A program made the translations under genes and the position numbers. A DNA stretch of 64,000 bases from NCBI RefSeq assembly GCF_004339765.1, contig NZ_SMGO01000001.1:372001-436000 (forward strand). The letters run 5' to 3'. The notes beneath the pieces were generated by a model. It saw only the letters and a program-made list of their open reading frames with translations, was not told the DNA's origin and searched no databases. Positions 31,517 to 46,809 of the stretch are shown one piece after another (positions within the stretch are counted from its first letter, which is position 1; every line of letters starts with the position of its first letter). The DNA is from Albibacterium bauzanense. GTDB taxonomy: Bacteria > Bacteroidota > Bacteroidia > Sphingobacteriales > Sphingobacteriaceae.

Positions 31517-32635
31517 ATGAAAAGAGCATTAGTACGATTTAGAAATAGCGCATTTCGAAAATATATTCGAAAACATGAAAAGCATTTACCTGTACTATTT
31601 TTCATGGGAGGATTCATCTTTGACACTATGACATTAGGCAGAATAGATCGTGTATATGATCTTACTATTCTTTGCTTACATATGATATTTCTAACGATTA
31701 ATATCTATCTCTTTAATTTAGCTGATGATGAAAAGTGGAAAAACACCTTTATCGAAAGATTCGAGATTTACCTTCCTTTAGCCATACAGTTTTCTTTTGG
31801 AGCACTTTCAAGTGCATACGTCATTTATTTTTCACGAAGTGTCTCTCTATCAAAGACAGCTTCATTTTTCATCATTTTAGTTTTTATACTATTCGCAAAC
31901 GAATTACTGAAAAAACGAATTTCAAATAAATACTTGCAGTTTAGTGTACTCTATTTTTTAAGCTTTACATTTTTCAGCTTTATAATCCCTGTTTTTATCA
32001 GAAAGATGAATCAAGATATTTTTCTGATCTCTGGCTTTACCAGTTTAGCTTATATTTTCTGCCTATTGATTTTTATCTATCTAGTAAGTCCCAGCACTCG
32101 CAAAGAGATTCATTTGGGAAAAATGATCAGTATGATATTGATACTTTATACAACATTAAATTTCTTTTATTTTTTTAAACTGATTCCTCCTGTGCCCTTA
32201 GCATTGGAAGATGGAATTGTTGCGCACCAAGTAGAGATAAGCAACAATAAGTATAAAGTTATATATGAGGCAGACGAATGGTATATATTCTGGAGAGACC
32301 ATCGATTAAAATTCACTCACCGTCCAAATGAAGATGTTTATATTTTTACTTCCATATTTGCTCCTACAAACCTGGAAAAAGCTATTGCACATCGTTGGAA
32401 ATGGTTAAACCCTGCTACTAAAAACTGGGAAATTGTAGAAGATATTGCTTATGAAATTAAAGGTGGCAGAACAGGCGGTTATCGAGGATATACCTACAAA
32501 AACAATGTTAAGAACGGAATCTGGAAAGTTGAAGTCATTACTGTAGACGAAGAACTTGTTTTAGGAGTGGTAGATTTTGAAATCGTTTCAGGATCAAGTA
32601 CAAAACAAATAGATTTAAAAGAAAGAAGATTTTAG
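31517..32635 (+). CDS. Membrane protein with C-terminal DUF2914 domain
   Basis: 372 aa from ATG 31517; a TTG four codons upstream is a weaker option. About seven hydrophobic helices fill residues 30-230. The last 130 residues are an exported-looking beta domain of DUF2914 type with HRWKWLN, RGYTYK and GIWKVEVIT. Its role is unknown. It marks the left edge of the accessory island. Its final 130 bases (from 32504) are repeated, with decay, at 40591-40721 together with the following yefM gene. Confidence 0.78.
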   Translation: MKRALVRFRNSAFRKYIRKHEKHLPVLFFMGGFIFDTMTLGRIDRVYDLTILCLHMIFLTINIYLFNLADDEKWKNTFIERFEIYLPLAIQFSFGALSSAYVIYFSRSVSLSKTASFFIILVFILFANELLKKRISNKYLQFSVLYFLSFTFFSFIIPVFIRKMNQDIFLISGFTSLAYIFCLLIFIYLVSPSTRKEIHLGKMISMILILYTTLNFFYFFKLIPPVPLALEDGIVAHQVEISNNKYKVIYEADEWYIFWRDHRLKFTHRPNEDVYIFTSIFAPTNLEKAIAHRWKWLNPATKNWEIVEDIAYEIKGGRTGGYRGYTYKNNVKNGIWKVEVITVDEELVLGVVDFEIVSGSSTKQIDLKERRF

Positions 32636-32679
32636 TCAAAGAGAGATTTCGTAAATCATTATCATAAGCCAGTACACAA

Positions 32680-32720
32680 TGTACAACATATTGTACAATT
32701 ATAAAATCTTCTTATATTTG
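32680..32720 (+). promoter_or_regulatory. YefM-type operator and promoter
   Basis: Two TGTACA hexamers (32680-32685 and 32692-32697) with centres 12 bp apart lie upstream of a -7 element TATATTTG at 32713-32720. The E. coli YefM-YoeB complex recognises TGTACA-core palindromes, so this is very likely the autoregulatory operator. The start codon is 5 nt after the -7 element. Confidence 0.75.
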
Positions 32721-32725
32721 TTATT

Positions 32726-32977
32726 ATGATTACAACCTATTCAGATTTCAGACAAAAGCTAAAGAAATACTTGGATGAGGTATTTAAAAGCAATAGTCCC
32801 TTATTTGTCACCCGTACAAAGGGTGAAAATATCGTAGTACTTTCAGAATCAGATTACGAAAGTATTATGGAAAGTTTTTATTTACTAAAATCTCCGAAAA
32901 ATGCGGAACGGCTTCAACGAGGAATTGAGCAGTATCAGCAAGGAAAAGCTCAACCAAAGAATCTTATCGAAGAATGA
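32726..32977 (+). CDS. yefM: YefM/Phd-type antitoxin
   Basis: 83 aa. Begins MITTYSDFRQKLKKYLDEV, the dimerisation and DNA-binding fold of Phd/YefM antitoxins, with VTRTKGENIVVLSESDYES as the second motif. The C-terminal half (about 50-83) is the flexible toxin-binding tail. It represses its own operon through the TGTACA sites upstream and neutralises YoeB. The stop overlaps the toxin start by 4 nt (ATGA). A decayed second copy is at 40760. Confidence 0.9.
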   Translation: MITTYSDFRQKLKKYLDEVFKSNSPLFVTRTKGENIVVLSESDYESIMESFYLLKSPKNAERLQRGIEQYQQGKAQPKNLIEE

Positions 32978-33228
32978 AAGTTATTTTTGTCGATGGTGCT
33001 TGGGAAGACTACTTATATTGGCAACAGACTGATAAATCAATGCTAAAAAAGATCAACGGCCTAATTAAAGAAATATTGAGAACTCCTTTCCAAGGAACAG
33101 GTAAGCCTGAACCTCTAAAAGAAAATTTATCTGGATTTTGGTCAAGACGTATAAATCAAGAACATCGCCTTGTGTATAAAGTCGAGGATGGAGTTGTTAT
33201 AGTTCTTCAATGCAAGTATCACTATTAA
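32974..33228 (+). CDS. yoeB: YoeB toxin (ribosome-dependent mRNA interferase)
   Basis: 84 aa, the same length as E. coli YoeB, with the known functional residues at the same numbers: Glu46, Arg65 and the C-terminal His83-Tyr84. It cleaves mRNA in the ribosomal A site when freed from YefM. All key residues are intact, so this copy looks active. It is translationally coupled to yefM. Immediately downstream lies a remnant of a DUF6266 gene on the other strand. Confidence 0.92.
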   Translation: MKVIFVDGAWEDYLYWQQTDKSMLKKINGLIKEILRTPFQGTGKPEPLKENLSGFWSRRINQEHRLVYKVEDGVVIVLQCKYHY

Positions 33229-33257
33229 AACCCTCCTCAATCTTTATAACCAATAAA

Positions 33258-33400
33258 CTACTTTTTATACCAAACTCCTAATATCCTACTCGGATTAAAT
33301 TCTTTATTATTCAAATAGGCGTTTGCATAAGAGAAATAAAGAAAGGTTTTTGGAGCAGCCAACATTTGTATCGGCAAGAATTGGAGATTGACTTTTAATA
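33258..33400 (-). pseudogene. 3'-end remnant of a DUF6266 gene (copy 1)
   Basis: On the minus strand the bases read in frame as ...FSYANAYLNNKEFNPSRILGVWYKK and a TAG stop at 33258. This matches the C-terminus of the intact protein at 49566 (...FGYLNNKSFNPCAILGVWYKR). The frame is closed upstream by a stop next to the invertase gene, so only about 46 codons remain. Confidence 0.75.
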
Positions 33401-33401
33401 T

Positions 33402-34010
33402 TTAATTGTTAAGGATTTGGTGATGTCTATTTACAAAACTCGAAACAGTTAATCTATGCACGCCCAGTATTCTTCCAATCGCACTATAAGACACTTTTCT
33501 TTCCAATAAATCCTTGATCTTTTTCTCTTGACCTGTAAGTTTCGTTTTCGAGGATTTACTTCCTTTAGGACGACCAAGAATCACACCTTCTGCTTTTTTC
33601 CGAGCAAGAGCTTCTTTAGTTCGTTGAGAAATAAGATTTCGCTCTATCTCAGCAGATAATCCAAAGGCAAATGCCAATACTTTAGAATTTATATCACTGC
33701 CTAAACGATAATTGTCTTTAATAGTCCAAACTTGAATATCCCTATTCATACATTCATTAAGCACACCCATAATCATTAAAAGATTTCTTCCCAAACGAGA
33801 CAATTCAGAACAAATTAGAATGTCCTCTTTTTTCATTTTTCTAAGAAGCTTACCTAATTTTCTTTCATCTACATTTTTCGAACCTGAAATAGTCTCTTCT
33901 ATCCATTTGTCTACTACATATACACTTTTCTTACAAAATTGGTTGATTTCGTACCGTTGATTTTCAACTGTCTGTTTGTCTGTACTTACTCTGATGTAAC
34001 CGTAAATCAT
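33402..34010 (-). CDS. Mpi-like serine recombinase (DNA invertase)
   Basis: 202 aa small serine recombinase. Catalytic Ser9 is in YIRVSTDKQ, followed by ICSELSRLGRNL and the long dimer helix FAFGLSAEIERNLISQRTKEA. A C-terminal DNA-binding domain (about 148-195) carries GRPKGSKSS and a Hin-like HTH (SYSAIGRILGVHRLTV). It is very similar in layout to the master DNA invertase Mpi of Bacteroides fragilis, which flips many promoters. Here it lies 86 bp from a silent, inverted specificity cassette of the neighbouring restriction gene, so its likely job is to invert that cassette. Confidence 0.9.
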   Translation of the reverse strand: MIYGYIRVSTDKQTVENQRYEINQFCKKSVYVVDKWIEETISGSKNVDERKLGKLLRKMKKEDILICSELSRLGRNLLMIMGVLNECMNRDIQVWTIKDNYRLGSDINSKVLAFAFGLSAEIERNLISQRTKEALARKKAEGVILGRPKGSKSSKTKLTGQEKKIKDLLERKVSYSAIGRILGVHRLTVSSFVNRHHQILNN

Positions 34011-34095
34011 AATTTTATCTGTTTAAATGAACAGTAAAAGTATTGTATAATTTAAATCAGTTCTGTCTAAATTAAAACAGACTATTATTATATGC

Positions 34096-35028
34096 AACCA
34101 AATCAGCGTTTACTTTAGACAGCATGCAACTATCTCTCAATTTAAGGGTTCAGAAAGTTGGGTGATTTTAAGCCCGATTGAACAAGGAATTAAGGCTAAA
34201 ATAGAGGCTGTAGGAACGCCTCTTAAGGATTGGGACATTAATATAAATCGAGGTATCTTGACTGGGTATAATGATGCTTTTATAATTGACGGGAAGAAAA
34301 AAGCTGAACTTATAACCTTAGACCCTAAATCTGCTGATATTATACGACCAATACTTAGAGAGCGTGATATCAAGCGATATTCACATGAATTTGCTGATTT
34401 ATGGCTTATTTATATACCTTGGCATTTCCCTTTGCATAATGATCCAACTGTAAAAGGCGCATCGCTAATTGCCGAGCAAGCCTTTGAAAATCAATACCCT
34501 TATATATATGCACACCTCTTGAAATACCATGTGGAATTGTCTAACAGAAACAAATCCGAGACCGGAATACGGTATGAATGGTATGCTTTACAACGTTGGG
34601 GAGCAAATTATTGGGAGGATTTTTCTAAACAGAAAATCATATGGAAAATTATTGGCGACCAAATGGCTTTTTCTATGGATTCTAGTAATCTTATGGTAAA
34701 TAATGCTTGTTATATCTTGACAGGTGGCAATTTAAAATACCTATTAGCCGTTTTAAACTCACGTATAATAAAATGGTATAGCTATCTAACTAACATGAAT
34801 AAGACAGGTGTAGGAGATATGCAAATAGGTGCTCAAAATGTAATACTTTTTCCAATTCCTCGTATTTCTGACGCTGAACAAAAGTCAATTTCGGAATTAG
34901 TACAAGGAATTTTAACAATGAAAGAAAATAACGAAGAAACAACTAAATTTGAAGCAGATATTGAAATATTAACCTATGAATTGTATGGTCTAACTAAAGA
35001 AGAAATTGCATTTATTGAAGCTCAATAA
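34096..35028 (+). pseudogene. Silent specificity cassette of the type IIG enzyme, inverted relative to the active gene
   Basis: An open frame without a start codon (first homologous codon near 34096; stops in frame at 34048) encodes about 310 residues matching the C-terminal target-recognition part of the 1235-aa enzyme at 35012-38719. It shares ISVYxRQ, ILSPIEQ, a 26-residue identical core, FADLWLI, WEDFSKQKII-like and the terminal LTKEEIAFIE. Between these the two sequences are unrelated, as expected for different DNA specificities. It is not expressed as it stands but would become the C-terminus of the enzyme after inversion. Confidence 0.88.
34269..34349 (+). repeat. 81-bp perfect inverted repeat, cassette copy
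   Basis: 81 identical bases (begins TAATGATGCTTTTATAATTG) shared in inverted orientation with 35619-35699. It encodes NDAFIIDGKKKAELITLDP and following residues in the same frame in both copies, so exchange here keeps the reading frame. Confidence 0.9.
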
Positions 35029-35050
35029 ATGCAATTTCTTCTTTAGTTAG
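34990..35050. repeat. Perfect 29-bp inverted repeat at the facing gene ends
   Basis: Arms 34990-35018 and 35022-35050 around AGC. Both the silent cassette and the active gene end in this repeat, each with its stop codon inside. It is the midpoint of the proposed invertible segment and would form a hairpin in either transcript. Confidence 0.85.
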
Positions 35051-38000
35051 CTTAAATGAATTATATATAATTAAATCAATATTTTCCGAATTTTCTATCG
35101 ACACATTTTTGCTTAAGCTAATTAATTGATTTGCTATCCCGGATGTATTTGGCATTGGAAAATTTTCAAAAAATGTATGTTTCATACGAATTCCATTTTC
35201 GCCTAATCCTCCACCACCATAAAATGTCTTTACCGCATAAAAGAATAATTTTGAATTCAAAATAGTAATCAGCACGTCGAGATTTTCTCCAGTTATAATT
35301 CTTGCCGTGTCCAAGCATAGATATTTACCATCTTCATCCAACATAAAACTTGGTTCCTGAACCATCTCTTGAAATATGATTTTCTGTTTAGAAAAATCCT
35401 CCATATATGCGCAGTTCCTTAAATTATAAGGAGTAATCCCTTTATCAGTTCTCTTTTCAAGTTCAGAATAATATTGGTCAAGATGTTGTTTAATCGCGGG
35501 ATAATCGTCTATATTTATGGGTTTTATACTTTGTTCTCTTATGCCATTATGGCTATTAATCAGCCACAAATCAGCAAATTCATGTGAATATCTTTTAACG
35601 TCCCTGCCGCGTAAAATAGGTCGTATAATATCAGCAGATTTAGGGTCTAAGGTTATAAGTTCAGCTTTTTTCTTCCCGTCAATTATAAAAGCATCATTAA
35701 AACCTGTTTTAATGCCGTAGTTTATACTAATTTCCCAATTTTTTAGCGGTGTGCCTATAGTTTCTATTTTAGCCTTTATTTGCTGCTCAATGGGGCTTAG
35801 GATTGTCCAATTAGTAGGGGTAGTAAAACTGGTTGTAATTCCAAACTGCCTAATATAAACGCTCAAATTACTTAACACCTTTTCTTTGACGACACAGGTT
35901 AACGTTTTTTGTTGATTTTTATCCTTAGAAAACATTAAGATATTAGTATCTACAGTCGCTGTATCAAAAATTTGTGTGCCTCCAAAATCGACTAAAACCA
36001 AAGGATTGCTCTTCTCTATAAAAAACTTCCTTAAACTTTCTCCATAACCAGCCCTCATCCATTTATTGGATGTAATAAAAATCAATAATCCCTTATTTTT
36101 TAAAATTCGATGCCCTAATTCATAAAACAAACTATAGATATCTCCTGTACGAGCGAATGTTTCATAACCGACTTTTTGTAAAGCATCGCTATCAGCTCCC
36201 ATTTTCTGCAATTGAATATATGGTGGGTTTCCAATAATTGCATCAAAACCAATAAAGTCGCCGTCATCATTTAATACTTCGGGAAATTCAATTCGCCATT
36301 CAAAAGCATTTTCGTAAATCTTATTATTCTTAACCTCTTCTCTAAAAGCTTCAATCTTTTGGATTTTATCTTCAAGGCTTTTTTTATCCTTTTGTTGAGC
36401 TTTAGTTAAGGTGACTGTAAATAACTGATCACTGCCATATTTATTAAAATATTCTGCATTCAGTAATTGTAAACTTCTTATTTCTTTACTATTTCTACTA
36501 ATCTCACTCTTGAAATTGCCCTTTATATCATTAATTAATATTTCTAATTTTCTTTTTTGATCTTTACTCTTTGCATTACGATAATCAGAAACTGCATTTC
36601 TATAATCATCAATCGAAATTTTGCTGCTCTTCAAAGCAGACTTCAAATCACTATCAAAACCAAAGCGGCTGATTAAAGAATTACCATTCTTAATATTAAT
36701 ATCAATATTTGGCAATGTTTCTAATTCTGTTTTTGTCTTATAATATGAATTCTTTAACAATTCAATCCACAATCGCAGACGACAAATCTTTACAGAGTTT
36801 GGATTAATATCAACTCCAAAAAGACAGTTCTCAATAATAATCTGCTTTTCATAAAACAATGTCTCTTGTATACGCTGACTCTCTCTGTTACTTGGATTAT
36901 ACTCAAATAATTCCCCGTCCTTACCGGTAATAATTAACTCATCATTTTCTACTTCAACACAATATTCTCTTAATCGCTTTCCATCCTTATCTTGCAAAAT
37001 CTCCAACTCACTTTTTATAGCGATTAATTCATTTAGTGCAGAAACTAAAAAATGGCCCGAACCAACAGCTGGATCGCAAATTTTGATACTATTTATAATC
37101 TGGTTTGCTTCATCTAAATCTTCAATTTTATTATATAATTTAGAAAACTCTTCACAGTTCCAACCTTTGACTTCGTTAAATTTTTGAATAACAGTTCTTC
37201 TTAAAATCTCCTTGCACATATACATAGTAATCACCCCTGGAGTAAAAAAAGACCCATCTTTGTAGCCATTAATTTTTTCAAAAATTAACCCAAGTACAGA
37301 AGCATTAATTAATGTCTTATTACCTTCTTGAATTTCTTCAGCCCCTTCACTACTAAAATCATACGAATCTAAAAATTGAAAAAGGTACTCTATAGTTGAT
37401 AAGTTCCCTACCCTTCTATTACCTTGTTGATCTTTTAAAACAGTCGTTGAAAGAATAGGAATTTTTTTATCATCTTTTAAATTACTGATAAATAAAGTAG
37501 AATGTTCTATTTCTGTAGGTTCAAAAAGTGAACTATTTAAATAAGGTACTTTTTCGAATATCTTTTTTACATCGTCATTCCTTTCCTCATGTTTACGTGC
37601 TAAAACCTGAAAAAACAAGCTGTTTAAATCATCGTATTCCTTGATTCTATCTAGATTCAAAAATGAATATGACTTATCGCCTTTATGGTATTTAATGAGC
37701 TGTGCTTCAAGTAATTTAAGAAATAGTACACGATTTATCCAAGTGATATTTAAAGTTAAGGCTACATTAAACAATCGTTCCTGATGATTTTCACCATATA
37801 GAAAAGCTTTATCTAATCTGGTCATTTTGTCCAAACTATCTAATTGGATAATAGTATCTTCTATGATAGTTCCGGAATTTCGCTTACCATCTTTATTGCG
37901 TTCTATTAACCTTTTCCCTCCTTCTTTCGTTTCTACCAGACCAATAATATGAAGCAATTCATTATAAAATTGTTTATCTAACGTATTACTATCATTCGTA

Positions 38001-38719
38001 AATGGGAGTTTCAAAAGATGCTCAGGAGACAATAATTTGAATAAAGCAATTAACTTATTATCATCCTTTTTATCGTCGTTCCTAACAATATCTTGGTAAT
38101 CCCGAATATCAAAATGAGTAAATTCTATTTCTTGGACGATAGATTCAATAGCTGGTTTTGCAATTTCCGAATAAAAGAAATCAGTCGTTTTACCTGATAA
38201 TCTGCCATTTATAAACTCCTCAAATTTCCATACCAAATCCTTATTTTTAGCAAATAAACGTTCAAAGACATGAACGTCAAAGAAATACCACTCATAAATA
38301 TTAGTAATAATTAAACTTTTTACTTCAATGTTTTTATGCGTAACTCGTTCTTGTAAATAATAAAATACTAATTCTTGAAGAGCCTTAACGTTTAAGTTAG
38401 ATAAACTTACCATCTCGCTCTTATTTGAAAGTTTCTTAGCTTCAAGAATCACCCCTACTGAAGTACTGGCTTTATCTCCATTATGGATTACAAGATCTTT
38501 TCTTCCTTTTGTATTTATAAAATGATTAGGATCATAATAAGTCTTCTTAAGGAAGTCAATAATTATATTTTTATGGAACTCTTCTGATTCATTATCATTA
38601 ATTCTGTCAATCAATTGAATCAGATTATTCTTGAAACTCTCTATTTCAACCCTGTTTGGTTTTACTTTCAGAAAAGCTTTATTTAACGCTTCTCTAGGCT
38701 TCAATACTTTAATTTCCAT
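35012..38719 (-). CDS. Type IIG restriction-modification enzyme (fused nuclease, DNA methyltransferase, specificity domain)
   Basis: 1235 aa. The N-terminal PD-(D/E)XK-like nuclease shows Asp75 (GRKDLVIHN) and Glu93-x-Lys95 (ILEAKK). The helical middle is followed by an adenine-methyltransferase core with motif I DPAVGSGHFL near 550 and NPPY in IIGNPPYIQLQ near 830. The C-terminal TaqI/Eco57I-like target-recognition domain (about 960-1235) ends LTKEEIAFIELQ. One chain can therefore both methylate and cut. Residues about 1008-1034 lie in the 81-bp inverted repeat shared with the silent cassette at 34096, so the last 200 residues can probably be swapped by inversion. The enzyme could also be a BREX-like methyltransferase, but no BREX genes are present. 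Confidence 0.88.
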   Translation of the reverse strand: MEIKVLKPREALNKAFLKVKPNRVEIESFKNNLIQLIDRINDNESEEFHKNIIIDFLKKTYYDPNHFINTKGRKDLVIHNGDKASTSVGVILEAKKLSNKSEMVSLSNLNVKALQELVFYYLQERVTHKNIEVKSLIITNIYEWYFFDVHVFERLFAKNKDLVWKFEEFINGRLSGKTTDFFYSEIAKPAIESIVQEIEFTHFDIRDYQDIVRNDDKKDDNKLIALFKLLSPEHLLKLPFTNDSNTLDKQFYNELLHIIGLVETKEGGKRLIERNKDGKRNSGTIIEDTIIQLDSLDKMTRLDKAFLYGENHQERLFNVALTLNITWINRVLFLKLLEAQLIKYHKGDKSYSFLNLDRIKEYDDLNSLFFQVLARKHEERNDDVKKIFEKVPYLNSSLFEPTEIEHSTLFISNLKDDKKIPILSTTVLKDQQGNRRVGNLSTIEYLFQFLDSYDFSSEGAEEIQEGNKTLINASVLGLIFEKINGYKDGSFFTPGVITMYMCKEILRRTVIQKFNEVKGWNCEEFSKLYNKIEDLDEANQIINSIKICDPAVGSGHFLVSALNELIAIKSELEILQDKDGKRLREYCVEVENDELIITGKDGELFEYNPSNRESQRIQETLFYEKQIIIENCLFGVDINPNSVKICRLRLWIELLKNSYYKTKTELETLPNIDINIKNGNSLISRFGFDSDLKSALKSSKISIDDYRNAVSDYRNAKSKDQKRKLEILINDIKGNFKSEISRNSKEIRSLQLLNAEYFNKYGSDQLFTVTLTKAQQKDKKSLEDKIQKIEAFREEVKNNKIYENAFEWRIEFPEVLNDDGDFIGFDAIIGNPPYIQLQKMGADSDALQKVGYETFARTGDIYSLFYELGHRILKNKGLLIFITSNKWMRAGYGESLRKFFIEKSNPLVLVDFGGTQIFDTATVDTNILMFSKDKNQQKTLTCVVKEKVLSNLSVYIRQFGITTSFTTPTNWTILSPIEQQIKAKIETIGTPLKNWEISINYGIKTGFNDAFIIDGKKKAELITLDPKSADIIRPILRGRDVKRYSHEFADLWLINSHNGIREQSIKPINIDDYPAIKQHLDQYYSELEKRTDKGITPYNLRNCAYMEDFSKQKIIFQEMVQEPSFMLDEDGKYLCLDTARIITGENLDVLITILNSKLFFYAVKTFYGGGGLGENGIRMKHTFFENFPMPNTSGIANQLISLSKNVSIENSENIDLIIYNSFKLTKEEIAFIELQ
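35619..35699 (-). repeat. 81-bp perfect inverted repeat, active-gene copy
   Basis: Reverse complement of 34269-34349, inside the active type IIG gene. The two copies are 1269 bp apart and define a 1431-bp invertible segment, 34269-35699. Confidence 0.9.
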
Positions 38720-39130: not shown

Positions 39131-39169
39131 AAGTAAACAATAATGTTTACTTAAATTTGTTTATCTTTG
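39131..39169 (+). promoter_or_regulatory. Operator and promoter of the AbiE-type toxin-antitoxin pair
   Basis: Inverted repeat AAGTAAAC-N6-GTTTACTT at 39131-39152, then -7 element TATCTTTG at 39162-39169, 3 nt before the ATG at 39173. The palindrome covers the expected -33 position, a fitting place for repression by the HTH antitoxin. Confidence 0.6.
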
Positions 39170-39172
39170 AAT

Positions 39173-39679
39173 ATGGAAACGACATTAGAGAAATATAAAG
39201 GAATACATCCAGGAATGATTCTCGAGCGCGAACTAAAGAAAAGAAATCTTAAAAAGGGTCCTTTCGCCCTTTCCTTAAATGAATATCCCCAAACGCTAAA
39301 TGAGGTAACCAAGGGAAGACGCGGGCTAACTCCTGCCCTATCTTTGAAAATAGACAAGGCTCTGGAATTAGAAGAAGGGACTATGTTTATACTGCAAGCC
39401 TATTACGAAATCAAAAAAGAGAAACAAAAAACTGAATTCAGAAAGCACCCTGACTTATCGATCATTCGAGAAATACTCTTCTGGGACACTGATATTAGTA
39501 AAATTGAATGGCAAAGACAATACAAATACGTTATTCAACGCATATTTGAACGAGGAAATACTGAGGAAAAAGAAGAGATCTTAAAGTTTTACGGTAAGGG
39601 CAAAATAAAAGAAATAACTGGCAAGGACAAGATCACAGGTAACAGTATACCGATCATGCTTCATAAAAAACTTAAATAA
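39173..39679 (+). CDS. HTH antitoxin-like protein (HigA/AbiEi-type, DUF6922-like tail)
   Basis: 168 aa from ATG 39173. The N-terminal XRE-type HTH of the HigA/VapI kind (about 12-75) has HPGMILERELKKRN, NEVTKGRRGLTPALS and IDKALELEEGTMF. The C-terminal region (about 90-145), with LFWDTDISKIEWQRQYKYVI and FERGNTEEKEEI, is a Bacteroidota domain (DUF6922) that I associate with AbiEii nucleotidyltransferase partners. It is 1 nt upstream of such a gene. It would act as repressor and antitoxin of a type IV system. Confidence 0.8.
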   Translation: METTLEKYKGIHPGMILERELKKRNLKKGPFALSLNEYPQTLNEVTKGRRGLTPALSLKIDKALELEEGTMFILQAYYEIKKEKQKTEFRKHPDLSIIREILFWDTDISKIEWQRQYKYVIQRIFERGNTEEKEEILKFYGKGKIKEITGKDKITGNSIPIMLHKKLK

Positions 39680-39680
39680 T

Positions 39681-40328
39681 ATGTTGTACTGGAATACTGT
39701 AAATAATCTTTTAAAAGACACCCTGATTACACTCATGCAATCTAAAGAATTCCTGAAATTCCGACTAGTAGGCGGAACAGCATTAAGTCTGCAACTAGGT
39801 CACAGAATGTCAGTTGACATCGATTTCTTTACCGACGCTTCTTATCGTTCAATCGACTTTGATGCAATTGAGGACTTTCTTAACATATCATTTGGTTATG
39901 TTCAAGGTGATTTTGGTGGCAACCCTGGCATAGGAAAATCTTATTTGGTCGGACCTGACATTAATCATATCACCAAACTAGATGTCTACTATGCAATAGA
40001 TCCATTTTTTCAACAAGCTATAGTTGAAGATAATATACGGATGGCCACAATTGAAGAAATTATAGCGATGAAAGTAGACATAGTTCAAAGAGGTGGAAGA
40101 AAAAAAGATTTCTGGGACCTGCACGAAGTACTTGATCACTATAGCATCAGCGAAATGAAGGATCTGCATCGCCAGCGTTTCGAATGGTCACATGATGAAG
40201 CTTTAATCCATCAAAACTTTACCGAGTTCGAAGCAGCCGATGATGAGCCAGATCCCATCTGTCTCAAAAACAAAGAATGGATCTTTATCAAAGAAGACAT
40301 CGAACAAGCCGTAAACGCCTCACTGTAA
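39681..40328 (+). CDS. AbiEii-type nucleotidyltransferase toxin
   Basis: 215 aa. Nucleotidyltransferase motifs GGTAL at 31-35 and DIDFF at 46-50 hold the metal-binding Asp pair. Downstream KVDIVQRGGRKKDFWDLHEVL is the conserved C-terminal segment of AbiEii/AbiGii proteins. AbiEii toxins abort phage infection by nucleotide transfer to cellular targets such as tRNA. All visible catalytic residues are present. It is translated 1 nt after its HTH partner. Confidence 0.85.
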   Translation: MLYWNTVNNLLKDTLITLMQSKEFLKFRLVGGTALSLQLGHRMSVDIDFFTDASYRSIDFDAIEDFLNISFGYVQGDFGGNPGIGKSYLVGPDINHITKLDVYYAIDPFFQQAIVEDNIRMATIEEIIAMKVDIVQRGGRKKDFWDLHEVLDHYSISEMKDLHRQRFEWSHDEALIHQNFTEFEAADDEPDPICLKNKEWIFIKEDIEQAVNASL

Positions 40329-40394: not shown

Positions 40395-40485
40395 TCACCT
40401 CCTATACCAAACTCCCAATATCTTACTCGGATTAAACTCTTTATTATTTAAATATCCGAAGCTCTGTAAAGAGGAAATAATCCTT
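40395..40485 (-). pseudogene. 3'-end remnant of a DUF6266 gene (copy 3)
   Basis: The minus strand reads ISSLQSFGYLNNKEFNPS then KILGVWYRR and TGA at 40395-40397, matching the C-terminus of the intact gene at 49566. About 30 codons remain. Confidence 0.72.
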
Positions 40486-40500
40486 TAGATAAATTGAACT

Positions 40501-40571
40501 AGCTAAAAATCCATTTAATGATAAATGTACTTCTTATTAGAAGTAAAACAAAACTCATTTACCATTACAAA
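40501..40571 (+). repeat. Dispersed repeat, second copy (first at 38916-38988)
   Basis: About 71 bp, roughly 80% identical to 38916-38988 (both begin AGCTAAAAA and contain AAAACAAAACTC). Non-coding. Each copy lies next to a DUF6266 remnant. Confidence 0.6.
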
Positions 40572-40590
40572 GAAATAAATAGATTCTCGA

Positions 40591-41053
40591 AATGTTAAGA
40601 ATGGAATCTGGAAAGTTGAAGTCATTACTGTAGACGAAGAACTTGTTTTAGGAGTAGTAGATTTTGAAATTGTTTCAGGATCAAGTACAAAACAAATAGA
40701 TTTAAAGGAAAAAAGATTTTAGTCAAAGAGAGATCTGTAAATTTCCTTATATTGTTATTATGCATACAACCTATTCAGATTTCAGACAAAAGCTAAAGAA
40801 ATACTTGGATGAGGTATTTAAAAGCAATAGTCCTTTATTTGTAACCCGGGCAAAGGGTGAGAATGTCGTGAGTCTTTCAGAATCAGATTACGAAAGTATT
40901 ATGGAAACTTTTTATTTATTAAAATCTCCAAAAAATTCAGAACGGCTTCAATGAGGAATTGAGCAGTATCAGCAAGGAAAAGCTCAACCCAGGAATCTTA
41001 TCGAAGAATGAAAGTTATTCTCAATCCTTATAACCACTAAACTACTTCTTATA
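40591..41053 (+). pseudogene. Decayed duplicate of the DUF2914-tail / yefM / yoeB region
   Basis: Matches 32504-32986 and then 33236-33269. It holds the last 130 bases of the DUF2914 gene (to TAG at about 40721), then a yefM copy at 40760 that breaks at a TGA (40952-40954) where the intact copy has CGA. Last come 12 bases of yoeB (41008-41019) joined directly to the sequence that follows intact yoeB, so the toxin gene is deleted. About 55 bp holding the TGTACA operator sites are also missing. No functional product is expected. Confidence 0.88.
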
Positions 41054-41102: not shown

Positions 41103-41942
41103 TTAAAGGAAATCTAAAGGACTTGGCGTATTTATTCTATTTACATCGGTAATGTGAGTATATATCTGAGTAGTTTTTATCGATTGATGACCTAATAATT
41201 CCTGTACTATACGAATATCAGTACCACTTTGAATTAAATGTGTAGCATATGAGTGTCGTAATGTGTGTACTGTGCCTAAAGTGCCTATTTTAGCTCGGGA
41301 AAGTGCTTGTTTAAGAACAAGTTGTACACTACGTTCACTATATCTATTACCCGAAGCACCTTCAAAAAGATAAACCTTTGGTTTGTATTCTTTATAATAT
41401 TCTCTTAAAGTTACTAATAACCTGTCGGGCAATGATACAATACGATCTTTATTACCCTTACTTTGATTTATTCTCAGTAATTTATCTGAAGATCTAACAT
41501 CGGTAATTTTCAGGTTCAAAACCTCACTGAGCCTTAATCCACAGCTGTAGATTGACATAAGCAAAGCCTTATGTTTTAAATTAGAAGTGCATTCTAAAAT
41601 CTTTCTTATTTCATCTTTGGAAAAGAACTTAGGTAAACTGTCAAAACTCCTTTTGGGATATAAGTAATCTAACTTGATATTTTTCACTAGTAAGAGCCTA
41701 TATAATTTTTTAATGGCACCAACTAGCCCTTTTTGATAGGAAACGCTTATCCGATCCTCTTTTACCTTCATATTTATGAAGTTTTCAATTTCTATTATCG
41801 GTATCTGTTCCAAATCAACATAGTCTTCCATATGTTTTAGAAAAATATGTGCATAGTCTCGGTAGGCTCTAATTGTACTAGGTGAATACCTTTGAAGTGC
41901 CAACCTTTTCTCAAATAATGTCAATAGATTTTCGCTATCCAT
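41103..41942 (-). CDS. Tyrosine recombinase adjacent to attC-like cassette array
   Basis: 279 aa. A SAM-like N-terminal DNA-binding domain (about 5-90) precedes a catalytic domain with all six residues: Arg137 (CGLRLSE), Lys162 (SKGNKDR), His226 and Arg229 (HTLRHSYATH), His252 (LLGHQS) and Tyr261 (IYTHI). The end SPLDFL resembles the SPLD tail of IntI. Between Lys162 and His226 there are only 64 residues, XerD-like; IntI1 has about 40 more, which include the integron-specific insertion. The gene is divergent from a cassette array whose first site is 158 bp from its ATG, exactly the layout of an integron integrase. Confidence 0.9.
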   Translation of the reverse strand: MDSENLLTLFEKRLALQRYSPSTIRAYRDYAHIFLKHMEDYVDLEQIPIIEIENFINMKVKEDRISVSYQKGLVGAIKKLYRLLLVKNIKLDYLYPKRSFDSLPKFFSKDEIRKILECTSNLKHKALLMSIYSCGLRLSEVLNLKITDVRSSDKLLRINQSKGNKDRIVSLPDRLLVTLREYYKEYKPKVYLFEGASGNRYSERSVQLVLKQALSRAKIGTLGTVHTLRHSYATHLIQSGTDIRIVQELLGHQSIKTTQIYTHITDVNRINTPSPLDFL

Positions 41943-42065
41943 ATTTAGTTAACAAGAATATTTTATAAATAGTTTCGCTATTTTGTCAATAATTAATAAT
42001 ATTTCCCTATTAGTCAATGTTTTAATATATTTACATAAGAATAAAACGCTATACATATATAATGT

Positions 42066-42108
42066 TGTATTAGCGAAATATGATTTCGTTAATACAGATG
42101 TTAGGGGC
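42066..42108 (+). other. First recombination site (attI-like or attC-like)
   Basis: Hairpin TGTATTAGCGAAA (42066-42078) against TTTCGTTAATACA (42084-42096), 12 of 13 paired, followed by GTTAGGGGC at 42100-42108. It is the boundary site between the recombinase and the first cassette. A clear R'' box was not found upstream, so attI is possible. The hairpin resembles the one at 48411-48443. Confidence 0.6.
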
Positions 42109-42148
42109 AAGGATATCGCAAAATCAACATCTATCATATTGTAACAAC

Positions 42149-43192
42149 ATGGAAAATTTAAAAGAAATTCTCGCGACACCCAAACAAATAGGTCTTTTAT
42201 TAGGGGCTGGAGTATCTAAAGCATGCGGACTCCCAAATATTGAAGATATAACTAAACTAGCTATAGCAGGTATTACTAATGCTAACTTCATTAAAATATT
42301 AGATGATAAGGATACTGTCGAAAATATATTAAATAAAACACAGCAATTAAGGATTTTATTAAAATCTGGAAAAGAAATAAATAGCTTAAAGGAACAAGAT
42401 ATTCTTGATATCGAAAAGGCTATAAAGAAAATTATTTTTGACGAATTATCAATTGAAATTGATACTGATAATTTTTATAAATTAGTTCTTTGGTTAAATT
42501 TTATTAATCGAGATTATGAAAAAGAAATTTTTACCCTAAATTATGATTTATTAGTTGAAAAAGCACTTGAAAAAGCGAGTTTACCATATTTCAGTGGTTT
42601 TATTGGAAACGTAAAACCTTTCTTTATTACAGACTCTGTTGATGATTTTCAAGGTGTCTATGTTAAGCAAAGCTGGGTTAAATTATGGAAATTACATGGT
42701 TCTTTGAACTTTGTAAAGGATATAAGTGATAAAATATACATTGACAATAGCGGAATTGAATCTGCTGAAAACCTGCTGATATATCCTTCTATGGATAAAT
42801 ATTTATCTTCTAGAAAGGCTCCATATATTTCCTATTTAGATAGACTACGTAAATATCTTATTGATAAAGAAAAAATTGTTTTTGTATTGGGATATTCTTT
42901 TGGTGATGACCATATAAATGAGGTTATTGTTAATGGGCTTAATAATAATCATCGTTTGTCAGTCATTGCTTTTGCATATGATGATTTCACTTTTAAACAA
43001 GGAATAGGTTTGTTAGGTAGTTATCCAAACTTTTCTATTTATACCAATAAGAAAAAGTATTCTAATCGAAGAGAAAGTATTTTTAATAGCACCTCTAATA
43101 TAGGTGATTTTAATAATTTAATCTCCTTAATTGATGAGATTACTTTTTCAAAACCAATTGCTCCCGAACCTAAAATAATACCCAAACCATAA
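42149..43192 (+). CDS. SIR2-domain protein of a SIR2-HerA defence system
   Basis: 347 aa from ATG 42149; the frame upstream runs into the recombination site. The SIR2 fold shows GAGVSKACGLPN at 19-30 (NAD binding), FTLNYDLLVEKAL and LWKLHGSLN with the His/Asn expected at the active site, then VLGYSFGDDHINE. In known SIR2-HerA systems the SIR2 subunit degrades NAD during phage infection. Its stop overlaps the HerA start by one base (TAATG), so the two are coupled. It is the first gene of cassette 1. Confidence 0.87.
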   Translation: MENLKEILATPKQIGLLLGAGVSKACGLPNIEDITKLAIAGITNANFIKILDDKDTVENILNKTQQLRILLKSGKEINSLKEQDILDIEKAIKKIIFDELSIEIDTDNFYKLVLWLNFINRDYEKEIFTLNYDLLVEKALEKASLPYFSGFIGNVKPFFITDSVDDFQGVYVKQSWVKLWKLHGSLNFVKDISDKIYIDNSGIESAENLLIYPSMDKYLSSRKAPYISYLDRLRKYLIDKEKIVFVLGYSFGDDHINEVIVNGLNNNHRLSVIAFAYDDFTFKQGIGLLGSYPNFSIYTNKKKYSNRRESIFNSTSNIGDFNNLISLIDEITFSKPIAPEPKIIPKP

Positions 43193-44955
43193 TGTTAAAT
43201 ATCACAAATAGCGGCAAAATTGGTCAGGTTATAGAAGTTAATACTGAAAGAGTTATAGTTGAAGTCAGCAATGAACTCGATAATTATAATATAATCCATA
43301 ATGGAACTTTGTATCGTATTGGTCAGGTTGGTAGTTTTGTAAAAATCATTAATGGTCTTTCTTGTGTTTATTGCGTTGTTGAATCTTTTTCAACTTATAT
43401 GCAAACTGGTGATATTGCAATCAATAAGAAGGTAATTAATGTCTCATTACTTGGATTTAAAAATATAAAGGGCGAATTTGAAAGCGGAGCTAAAATAACA
43501 CCAAGTATTGCCGATTCAGTTTTTTTGATTGATGAAGACGATATCAATGTCATATTTAAATCTGATGTGAAATTTCCTATTGAAGTTGGGAAAAATTATT
43601 TTTCCAATAGTCTACCTGTTTACTTAAATCTTAATGAATTTGTACTTAAACATTCACTAATAGTAGGTAGTACAGGTAGTGGTAAATCTAATACTGTTGC
43701 TTATCTATTAAATAATATAACGACAGAATATAAAAGTTCCAGGGTTGTAATTATTGATATTCATGGTGAATACATGAAATATCTTGGTGACGATGCAAAT
43801 GAATTCTCCATTTATGACCCAGCAAAAAAGCTGGTTATACCATATTGGATGCTTGATTTTGAAACTCTTTGTAAATTGTTTGGACTTGGAAACGGTTTAA
43901 CTTATTCCTCAATTATAGATGTCTTTAGGGATAGGATTCTTGAAATGAAAAAAGAATTTGTTAATTCAGTAGACTTACTAAAAGAAAAAATAAAACTATC
44001 AGATATAAATATAAATTCGCCAATTCCATTTAATATTAAAAATATTTGGTTTGAATTTTATAATAGAGGTTATGGCACCTTTGAGAATGGCTCAAGAATA
44101 TTCGGTGAATTCGCATATCTAAAAGACGGAGATGAAAATCCTTTAATTGGAGATGCTGAAAATTTGATTAAACCTCAATTTGAACCATATTCTATGGGAG
44201 TCAATAGACCATTTAAGTCAAATGAGGTTCAATATAAAAACGTTGCAGATAACATCGAGAATTTATTGCGTAATGAAGATTTTAAATTTGTATTTGGTGA
44301 TGATGAATACATAAAAGGAGATAAAAGTATAGCAGAATTAATTTCCTCTTGGATTGAAAATGATAAACAAATAAGCGTATTAAACCTAAGCGGAATACCA
44401 TATAATATCTTAGATGTTGTCATTGGAGTACTTTCAAACTTACTATTTGACACGGTTTATTATACTTTAAAAATTGACGATAAGAAATATGAAGGTCGGC
44501 CTTTGCTAATATGTTACGAAGAAGCGCATCGGTACTTAAATTCTGGAACTCAAAATAGTTTTTCTCAAAATGCTGTAGAACGAATAATGAAAGAAGGAAG
44601 GAAATTTGGATTGGGAGCAATGATAATTTCTCAAAGACCAGTTGAAATTCCTAATACGATTTTATCCCAAGTTAGCACTTTTATTGCTCTGCGCTTAACT
44701 AATAGTGAGGATCAGTCAAAAATTATAAGTTTTGCACCAAATAATTTTTCAATGTTCCTCAAATCTTTGCCATCCTTGGGAAATGGAGATGCATTTGTAA
44801 TTGGCGAGTGTATGAAAATACCAATGAAAGTAAAAATACCATTATTAGACACTGTAAAGAACATAAACTTTGCTGAAAAGATAAGAGCATGGAATCAAGA
44901 AAAACCAGAAGAATTAAGTTATAGTGAAACAATAATACGTTGGATGCAAAAATAA
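43192..44955 (+). CDS. HerA-type DNA translocase ATPase of a SIR2-HerA system
   Basis: 587 aa. An N-terminal HAS-barrel-like domain (1-120) precedes a RecA-like ATPase with Walker A VGSTGSGKSNT near 160, the DIHGEYMKYLG motif typical of HerA/FtsK-like enzymes, Walker B LLICYEEAHRYL near 440, and IISQRPVEIPNTILSQ with the sensor Gln/Arg. It forms hexamers in characterised systems and assembles with SIR2 into a large NAD-degrading complex. It is coupled to the SIR2 gene by a one-base overlap and is 14 nt upstream of a KTSC gene. Confidence 0.88.
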   Translation: MLNITNSGKIGQVIEVNTERVIVEVSNELDNYNIIHNGTLYRIGQVGSFVKIINGLSCVYCVVESFSTYMQTGDIAINKKVINVSLLGFKNIKGEFESGAKITPSIADSVFLIDEDDINVIFKSDVKFPIEVGKNYFSNSLPVYLNLNEFVLKHSLIVGSTGSGKSNTVAYLLNNITTEYKSSRVVIIDIHGEYMKYLGDDANEFSIYDPAKKLVIPYWMLDFETLCKLFGLGNGLTYSSIIDVFRDRILEMKKEFVNSVDLLKEKIKLSDININSPIPFNIKNIWFEFYNRGYGTFENGSRIFGEFAYLKDGDENPLIGDAENLIKPQFEPYSMGVNRPFKSNEVQYKNVADNIENLLRNEDFKFVFGDDEYIKGDKSIAELISSWIENDKQISVLNLSGIPYNILDVVIGVLSNLLFDTVYYTLKIDDKKYEGRPLLICYEEAHRYLNSGTQNSFSQNAVERIMKEGRKFGLGAMIISQRPVEIPNTILSQVSTFIALRLTNSEDQSKIISFAPNNFSMFLKSLPSLGNGDAFVIGECMKIPMKVKIPLLDTVKNINFAEKIRAWNQEKPEELSYSETIIRWMQK

Positions 44956-44969
44956 TTAAAGGAAAAACT

Positions 44970-45218
44970 ATGGATATAGAATGGCAAGAAATTGGGTTTG
45001 ACTCAGATAATATTGATAGAATTGCTCATACTGGATTAGATATGTATGTAGAATTTAAGAAAGGTAGCGGTTACAAGTTTTGTAACTTACCTTATGAAAT
45101 TTTCGAAAGAATTCTAAATAAAGAAGTAATTAGTAAAAGTCAGGGTAAACCATCTTATGGCGCCACATTTAATATGCTAGTTGTAAAAGGCGGTTACAAA
45201 GGAGAGCAGTATAAATAA
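44970..45218 (+). CDS. KTSC-domain small protein
   Basis: 82 aa from ATG 44970, 14 nt after HerA. The pattern WQEIGFDSDNIDRIAHTG, then YVEFKKGSGYKFCNLPYEIFERIL, matches the KTSC fold (small beta-alpha domain found alone or fused to phage and lysyl-tRNA-synthetase-like proteins). Its biochemical role is not established. The tight spacing and its location inside the same cassette, before attC1, make it a candidate third component or inhibitor/accessory of the SIR2-HerA system. Confidence 0.75.
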   Translation: MDIEWQEIGFDSDNIDRIAHTGLDMYVEFKKGSGYKFCNLPYEIFERILNKEVISKSQGKPSYGATFNMLVVKGGYKGEQYK

Positions 45219-45261
45219 TAGTTTTGAATTAAATTGAATGAAAATTAGAGAATAAATCCCA

Positions 45262-45397
45262 GCCCCTAACAGCACCTACAAAAAATTGGCGTTTCAGTGG
45301 TTAAATGAAGCTTTGTGCTTAGTTTCAAGTTCAATGGTAGCAGATAGTTTAGAGCTTCGAAATCGCCAACTTCTTGTAGCTGCAAAACGTTAGTGGC
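45262..45397 (+). other. attC-like site 1
   Basis: R'' GCCCCTAAC (45262-45270) and R' GTTAGTGGC (45389-45397) enclose 118 bp. The outer part folds back: GCACCTACAAAAAATTGGCG (45272-45291) matches the complement of the segment 45364-45383 at 17 of 20 positions. R'' is a perfect complement of GTTAGGGGC at the start of the same cassette. It fills most of the non-coding gap 45219-45543. Confidence 0.8.
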
Positions 45398-45510
45398 AAG
45401 GCTAACGGGCGAAGCTGCCAAATAAGAGAATGTCGTCAATAAAGATCTTTTTTTTGAGACTTTTTCTCAATTTATAATCAGAAATTGTGTTTTTTTGTGA
45501 ATTTATGTTT

Positions 45511-45518
45511 TAGATTTG
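45511..45518 (+). promoter_or_regulatory. -7 element TAGATTTG for the cassette-2 operon
   Basis: TAGATTTG matches TAnnTTTG, 25 nt before the ATG at 45544. The cassette therefore seems to carry its own promoter instead of relying on a shared array promoter. Confidence 0.6.
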
Positions 45519-45543
45519 CGTATATTTCTCAAAATAAATAAAA

Positions 45544-46809
45544 ATGTTAGTACAATTTACAGTTGGAAATTTTCTTTCCTTCAATAAGAAAAGAACACTA
45601 AGCCTTGAAGCCAAAGGCATTTCCGAATTAAAAACCAATATATCTAGTTTCAAACCTGAAAAGATTCTTCGTTCATCTGTAATTTATGGAGCTAATTCAA
45701 GTGGAAAAAGCAATTTGATTAAAGCCTTAGAAAGAATGAGAGACGTTGTTTTGAGCTCTGTGAAGTTAAATGATTCAGATGAATTAGATTATTCCCCATT
45801 CTTACTATCCACCGAAACCGAAAATCAACCGACTTTTTTTGAAATTGTTTTTTGGCAAGATTCAACGAGATATAGATATGGCTTTGAATATACATTGGAG
45901 CAAATTGTCAATGAATGGCTATTTGCTGGGAAATCTGAAAAAAGTGAGAAATCTCTGTTCATAAGGACATTGGATGGAATAGGTGTTTCCGATAAATTTA
46001 AAGAAGGCGAAGGAAATGAATCTAAAACAAATGGCAACCGACTATTTATTTCTCTGGTAGCTCAATTAGGCGGTGACATTTCAAAAAAAATAGTAGATTT
46101 TTTCAATGATTATAATGTATTGTCAGGTCTTGAGCATAATGATTATACAGGGTTTACAATGAGAATGCTTCACAAAAATTTGAATGGATGCAATGAATCT
46201 TTGAAACTATACCAAAAGCTTAAATTAGGATTCAAAGAGATTAATGCGGTAGAGTCAGACTTTAATCCAGCTGAAATCCCTGACTTTATTTCAGCTAAAA
46301 TGAAAACAAAACTTATTAAAGACTTCGCTGGGAAAAAAGGTGTTAGTTTAAAGACCGTACATAATAAATTTGACAAAAAAGGAAATGTTATAGATTTTGT
46401 TGTTTTTGACAAACAAGGAAATGAGTCCGAAGGTACTAACAAAATTATTGATTTGTCTGGACCGATTTTCGATACATTGTATCTCGGTAAAGCGTTAATT
46501 ATTGATGAATTAGACGCTAAGTTACATCCGCTAATTACAATACGTATTGTTGAACTTTTTAATAGCCCAGAATCAAATCCTAACAATGCTCAATTGATTT
46601 TCACAACACACGATACTAATTTATTAGGTGAAGATCTTTTTAGAAGAGATCAAATTTGGTTTGCAGAAAAGGACGATCAAGAACAAACAGATTTGTATTC
46701 GCTATCCGACTTCAACTTACCTGACGGCTCTAAAGTTAGAAACGATTCAAATCTTGAAAGAAACTACATAAGAGGCAGATATGGTGCCATTCCATTCATT
46801 ACAAACTAA
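45544..46809 (+). CDS. AAA ATPase of an RloA/AbiLi-like defence pair
   Basis: 421 aa, ABC/SMC-like AAA_15 ATPase. The start VQFTVGNFLSFNKKRTLSLEA is the family N-terminus. Walker A is GANSSGKS at 49-56, ESEGTNKII the signature region, Walker B ALIIDELDAKLHP near 316-328, then FTTHDTNLL with the His switch. ATPases of this shape pair with RloB-type TOPRIM proteins in the AbiL and RloAB families, implicated in phage resistance. The RloB-like gene follows 7 nt downstream. Confidence 0.85.
   Translation: MLVQFTVGNFLSFNKKRTLSLEAKGISELKTNISSFKPEKILRSSVIYGANSSGKSNLIKALERMRDVVLSSVKLNDSDELDYSPFLLSTETENQPTFFEIVFWQDSTRYRYGFEYTLEQIVNEWLFAGKSEKSEKSLFIRTLDGIGVSDKFKEGEGNESKTNGNRLFISLVAQLGGDISKKIVDFFNDYNVLSGLEHNDYTGFTMRMLHKNLNGCNESLKLYQKLKLGFKEINAVESDFNPAEIPDFISAKMKTKLIKDFAGKKGVSLKTVHNKFDKKGNVIDFVVFDKQGNESEGTNKIIDLSGPIFDTLYLGKALIIDELDAKLHPLITIRIVELFNSPESNPNNAQLIFTTHDTNLLGEDLFRRDQIWFAEKDDQEQTDLYSLSDFNLPDGSKVRNDSNLERNYIRGRYGAIPFITN

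Follow-up and report, generated by a model that had tools for sequence, protein, structure and literature searches.

A putative Mpi-associated three-site inversion system in the recognition domain of a type IIG restriction-modification enzyme of Albibacterium bauzanense

We suggest that an Mpi-family serine DNA invertase shuffles, by inversion at three sites here termed A, C and B, the recognition domain of a type IIG restriction-modification enzyme in Albibacterium bauzanense, generating up to eight variants of the enzyme. On the comparative sequence evidence reported here, we consider this reading likely. The locus was analyzed within a window of 64,000 nt (NZ_SMGO01000001.1 of assembly GCF_004339765.1, positions 372,001-436,000, forward strand) of a 3.08-Mb genome, and compared with 400 genomes of the family and 80 named loci.

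In the proposed mechanism, the invertase would recombine short in-frame sites, of which one lies in the expressed recognition domain and the other, inverted, in a silent copy. The site pairs A, C and B would delimit three modules, at roughly aa 959-1029, 1035-1106 and 1117-1235. An inversion at any one pair would make the expressed and silent copies trade, in frame, everything downstream of that site, and successive inversions would thus yield up to 2^3 = 8 intact enzymes. We infer that the invertase catalyzes the exchange, that switching occurs in the A. bauzanense strain, and that the resulting variants recognize different DNA sequences, changing both methylation and restriction.

Results

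Anatomy of the cassette

The features of the locus, in window coordinates, are the following.

33402-34010, minus strand: Mpi-family serine DNA invertase, 202 aa (NF009949, 343 bits)
about 34051-35028, plus strand: silent inverted recognition-domain copy, an open frame of 325 codons (TaqI_C, E 2e-12)
35012-38719, minus strand: type IIG restriction-modification gene, expressed copy, 1235 aa
34105-34122, plus strand: candidate site A, silent side, AGCGTTTACTTTAGACAG
35846-35863, minus strand: candidate site A, expressed side, AGCGTTTATATTAGGCAG, codons 953-958
34269-34349, plus strand: silent arm of the perfect 81-bp inverted repeat, with candidate site C in the last 14 bases
35619-35699, minus strand: 81-bp perfect inverted repeat, expressed side, with candidate site C at 35619-35632
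34336-34349 (plus strand, GATATTATACGACC) and 35619-35632 (minus strand): candidate site C, the 3' end of the 81-bp repeat, codons 1030-1034
34376-34400 (plus strand) and 35568-35592 (minus strand): 25-bp common block within module 2
34614-34642, plus strand: candidate site B, silent side, a 29-bp perfect inverted repeat, GGAGGATTTTTCTAAACAGAAAATCATAT
35374-35402, minus strand: candidate site B, expressed side, codons 1107-1116 (EDFSKQKII)
34990-35018 and 35022-35050: 29-bp perfect inverted repeat at the tail-to-tail gene ends, encoding LTKEEIAFIE on both strands

The 1235-aa protein is predicted to be a single-chain type IIG restriction-modification enzyme that combines a nuclease, an N6-adenine methyltransferase and a recognition domain. 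It matches the Pfam domains DUF7149, DUF7814 (N-terminal), Eco57I, N6_Mtase (N6-adenine methyltransferase) and TaqI_C (C-terminal recognition), and the PADLOC IIG profile PDLC03612 covers residues 1-1233 of 1235 (E 6.3e-297). The sequence further contains the motifs DPAVGSG and NPPY and, in its N-terminal part, a stretch resembling D...ExK. An AlphaFold model of residues 480-1235, comprising the methyltransferase and recognition part (mean pLDDT 85.5), matched the folds of CamA, M.BseCI, PglX, MmeI and BpuSI; in this model, the residues encoded by sites A, C and B form helix-to-strand junctions where the recognition domain begins and in its interior. Two other assignments were excluded: a BREX PglX methyltransferase, given an NCBIfam PglX score of 86.6 bits against a cut-off of 500, and a type I system with hsdS, since the gene encodes a single chain and no hsd genes were found among the surrounding proteins searched.

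The silent copy has no start and no methyltransferase part. It corresponds only to the C-terminal recognition domain of the type IIG gene, and it retains the conserved motifs. The 81-bp repeat is 100% identical in inverted orientation, has the same codon phase in both copies, forms the core of a 257-nt inverted match (80%), and was found by genome search at only two places in the 3.08 Mb. The invertase is full-length, aligns its RVST serine to Ser9 of Gin, as expected for the catalytic serine of the resolvase fold, scores above the NCBIfam Mpi equivalog cut-off of 272 bits and, as the single match in its own genome, is the only copy. Most of the anatomy proposed in a first-pass annotation of this DNA is thereby borne out: the 1235-aa minus-strand gene and the start-less domain copy lie tail to tail, the 81-bp perfect inverted repeat is in frame, the sequence LTKEEIAFIE stands two residues from the end of both proteins, and an Mpi-like serine invertase sits beside the silent copy. 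The claim that the two domains are unrelated outside their common blocks, however, must be withdrawn, as the expressed and silent recognition domains are 47% identical.

Three candidate exchange sites

Recognition domains from 42 invertase-linked and 73 unlinked loci were aligned by codon, and identity at synonymous codons was taken as the measure of conservation. Overall, this identity was equal in the two sets (0.481 linked, 0.487 unlinked), but the linked set peaked at three places: site A (0.75-0.87, versus 0.50-0.53 in unlinked genes), site C (0.71 versus 0.57) and site B (0.70-0.77 versus 0.61-0.64). Shuffling of the labels gave a clear result for A (0/500) and weaker ones for C (4/500) and B (24/500, a modest signal), with one control window, in the tail, likewise at 4/500. 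The site A motif, GAGCG[AT]TTwTnTTAGACAG, marks where homology begins in both the expressed and the silent copies, and unlinked genes lack it; the C and B patterns read GAAATTATACG[AT]CC and GGAGGATTTTTnTAAACAG, respectively. The exact blocks common to expressed and silent copies vary by locus, and a second group of loci conserves A and C but not B. Sites A and B are alike and C is unlike either, so that the three sites need not all be served by one enzyme.

A permissive version of the A pattern has exactly two matches in the A. bauzanense genome, which are the two ends of the cassette (34105-34122 and 35846-35863), while a reversed-pattern control returned no match in the 3.08 Mb. The two copies mismatch at 4 of 19 positions, and A may therefore work poorly here. 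Inversions performed in silico at A, C and B produced eight different proteins, which are 1235, 1243, 1251 or 1259 aa long, share their first 950 residues and contain no premature stop; every exchange keeps the frame. These results extend the earlier proposal in several respects. The specificity-swapping inversion that it put forward is well supported by a conserved module, swapped arrangements and assembly breaks in relatives (see below), but its anatomy was incomplete, in that the 81-bp repeat holds only one of the three sites, A being located where the recognition domain begins and B in the middle of that domain. The bounds it drew for the cassette, 34269-35699, leave the probable exchange site A outside, and the two methylomes it envisaged would become as many as eight enzyme variants once A and B are counted.

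Swapped modules and assembly breaks in relatives

Rearranged loci in Chryseobacterium are consistent with exchange at these sites. Between C. taeanense (L038) and C. sp. Leaf404 (L047), all six modules are orthologous, module 1 being in place (79 and 86% identity) and modules 2 and 3 being swapped (77-80%). The change point falls at aa 1028-1036, which is site C, and blastn returned an inverted match flanked by collinear sequence; as judged from these alignments, the difference between the two loci is one inversion at site C. In a comparison of C. taeanense with C. sp. ZHDP1 (L039), whose gene bodies share 92.5% DNA identity, module 1 is swapped (90 and 93%), the expressed module 2 is unswapped (94%) and module 3 is swapped (84%), with change points at C and B. 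As aligned, this arrangement needs exchanges at A, C and B. Change points at site B in the Chryseobacterium swaps lie at aa 1103-1118. More broadly, 51 pairs of recognition domains are module mosaics, in which one or two modules are at least 75% identical and another is at most 50% identical. One further pair, L069 and L087, had been a candidate for another such swap, with a sharp switch at site B, and was dropped when the test placed the switch at aa 1208. A search of plasmid records for opposite orientations returned only distant IIG genes.

Assembly breaks offer a second line of evidence. Among 22 contig ends or gaps within invertase-linked recognition domains, 13, as counted by eye, lie inside a site (binomial p 5e-10, under a null of uniform breaks with sites occupying 66 of 900 bp). 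In two genomes (G095 and G098), two contigs each stop at the same 18-bp block, with differing upstream sequences, and in a third (G337) a scaffold gap comes after site A. A repeat of only 18 bp should not by itself halt an assembly made with long k-mers, and both continuations were hence probably present in the sequenced DNA of these relatives. The break in G001 is weaker because its two copies have 260 bp in common up to B, and G244 may likewise carry a longer repeat. Contig ends in G275 and, less exactly, in G365 lie about 122-127 bp past a site, the offset that a 127-mer assembly graph would give; these were left out of the 13.

These observations also bear on a simpler reading, in which the 81-bp repeat, and hence site C, is the sole pair used and the locus alternates between two enzymes. 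The repeat is indeed the longest identical block, the clean pair of C. taeanense and Leaf404 is separated by a single exchange at C, and the A copies of the window carry mismatches. Yet silent-copy homology begins at site A in most invertase-linked loci, other genomes, including that of locus L143, break at A or B, the arrangement in ZHDP1 requires all three sites, and the A pattern is found solely at the cassette ends in its own genome. As a full account, the 81-bp repeat as sole crossover was rejected, given that A and B are conserved, that A brackets the silent copies and that both match assembly breaks; overall, we regard a two-enzyme switch as unlikely.

It is less probable still that the silent copy is a fossil, the remnant of an old duplication in a genome where switching has ended. 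Such a reading would fit the mismatched A copies and the single orientation seen in A. bauzanense, where one strain is represented and its contig spans the cassette. It fits poorly with a silent frame that has stayed open over 325 codons with its conserved motifs kept, with an intact invertase, with perfect identity over 81 and 29 bp, and with relatives that look active.

Distribution of the module

Three-site inversion by Mpi, the reading we favor, is also supported by the co-occurrence of the parts. The three-part module, made up of a IIG gene, an inverted spare recognition domain and an Mpi gene, is present in genera that include Pedobacter, Chryseobacterium, Algoriphagus and Bacteroides. 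Downstream sequence was sufficient at 69 IIG loci, of which 16 carry spare domain and Mpi together, 53 lack both and none has one alone (Fisher p 5e-16). Homologous recombination or gene conversion between the copies, with no site-specific recombinase, is a very unlikely source of the identical blocks and occasional swaps, given this perfect co-occurrence, sites whose sequence is shared by different genera solely in the presence of Mpi, and common blocks of only 17-25 bp in many loci, too short for efficient RecA-type exchange. In its favor, the perfect identity over 81 bp is more than a serine invertase needs and could also stem from gene conversion, and identical 42-80-bp blocks stand at the same place in three other loci (L024, L069 and L087).

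Four genomes (G199, G106, G295 and G395) carry the same kinds of modules (up to 92% identical), the same sites and an Mpi 86-90% identical, in association with IIG proteins whose methyltransferase part is only about 30-32% identical to that of the window. The specificity cassette thus seems to travel between enzyme families. We would give even chances to a broader proposal, that of a portable shuffler in which a single invertase acts at three sites embedded in coding sequence, and three modules of the recognition domain of a one-chain enzyme recombine freely to give eight specificities per locus; modules, sites and invertase alike would pass between two or more type IIG families with methyltransferase parts only about 30% identical.

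Two silent arrays depart from the usual layout. In L132 (G337:C24:1-1500), the order is 1-2-2-3, with an extra module, as if added at a site, and in L137 (G199:C13) the silent copy seems to start at site C, without module 1.

Discussion

Inversion of type I hsdS genes is classical and long known, and a type IIG enzyme of Campylobacter jejuni NCTC 11168 is known to be phase-variable through on/off switching at a repeat tract. The C. jejuni enzyme resembles the system proposed here in its variable methylation and restriction and differs from it in that no domains are exchanged. Milman, Yelin and Kishony reportedly described type II restriction-modification systems in 2023 as a newly found family targeted by inversion, with confirmation by long reads. 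In the papers that we searched, we found neither a type IIG gene switched by inversion nor an Mpi enzyme that reshuffles a type IIG recognition domain at three sites, a result that does not prove such reports to be lacking.

Among the closest parallels are the type I hsdS systems, namely the B. fragilis shufflon BB, the S. pneumoniae hsdS locus and Mycoplasma pulmonis hsd, which likewise use in-frame inverted repeats and swap recognition domains between an expressed gene and silent genes. They act on a separate specificity subunit, whereas inversion in A. bauzanense would target a single-chain type IIG enzyme in its C-terminal quarter, with exchange points inside one recognition domain. The recombinases also differ. 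The hsdS shufflon of B. fragilis NCTC 9343, credited with eight specificities, adjoins tyrosine integrases (PMC3090145), in contrast to the serine invertase found here. Mpi of B. fragilis belongs to the same serine invertase family (NF009949) and inverts 13 regions, of which seven are promoters of capsule loci (PMC4747536), while the A pattern in A. bauzanense marks only the two ends of one coding cassette.

Because a single-chain type IIG enzyme alters the specificity of methylation and of cutting together, a switching locus would simultaneously equip a clonal population with multiple methylomes and multiple barriers to phage. Fixed borders between three modules would moreover offer natural rules for the design of new type IIG specificities, which enzyme engineering has long found difficult, and the correspondence between modules and recognized bases could be read directly from the methylomes of switching strains. 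As the module is widespread in Bacteroidota, the proposal is testable in many cultured strains.

Some further observations concern the ends and surroundings of the locus. The 29-bp tail repeat (34990-35050) has a 3-bp centre, the expressed and silent frames overlap there by 17 bp, and the repeat may act as a hairpin terminator in both directions; in Pedobacter sp. Leaf170 (L077), the gene ends carry an inverted repeat of 25 bp with another sequence at the same place. The islet as a whole is flanked by direct repeats (32504-33346 and 40400-41053), 93-97% identical, each of which contains the final part of a DUF2914 gene together with a gene for a YefM antitoxin. A YoeB toxin gene is present on the left side only, an arrangement suggestive of the insertion or duplication of an 8-kb island. 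At 39167-40328, an AbiEii-like nucleotidyltransferase toxin adjoins a DUF6922 protein, and a possible defence cluster lies beside the islet at 41103-46809, with a XerC/D-like recombinase, a SIR2 and HerA pair and an AbiLi-like ATPase.
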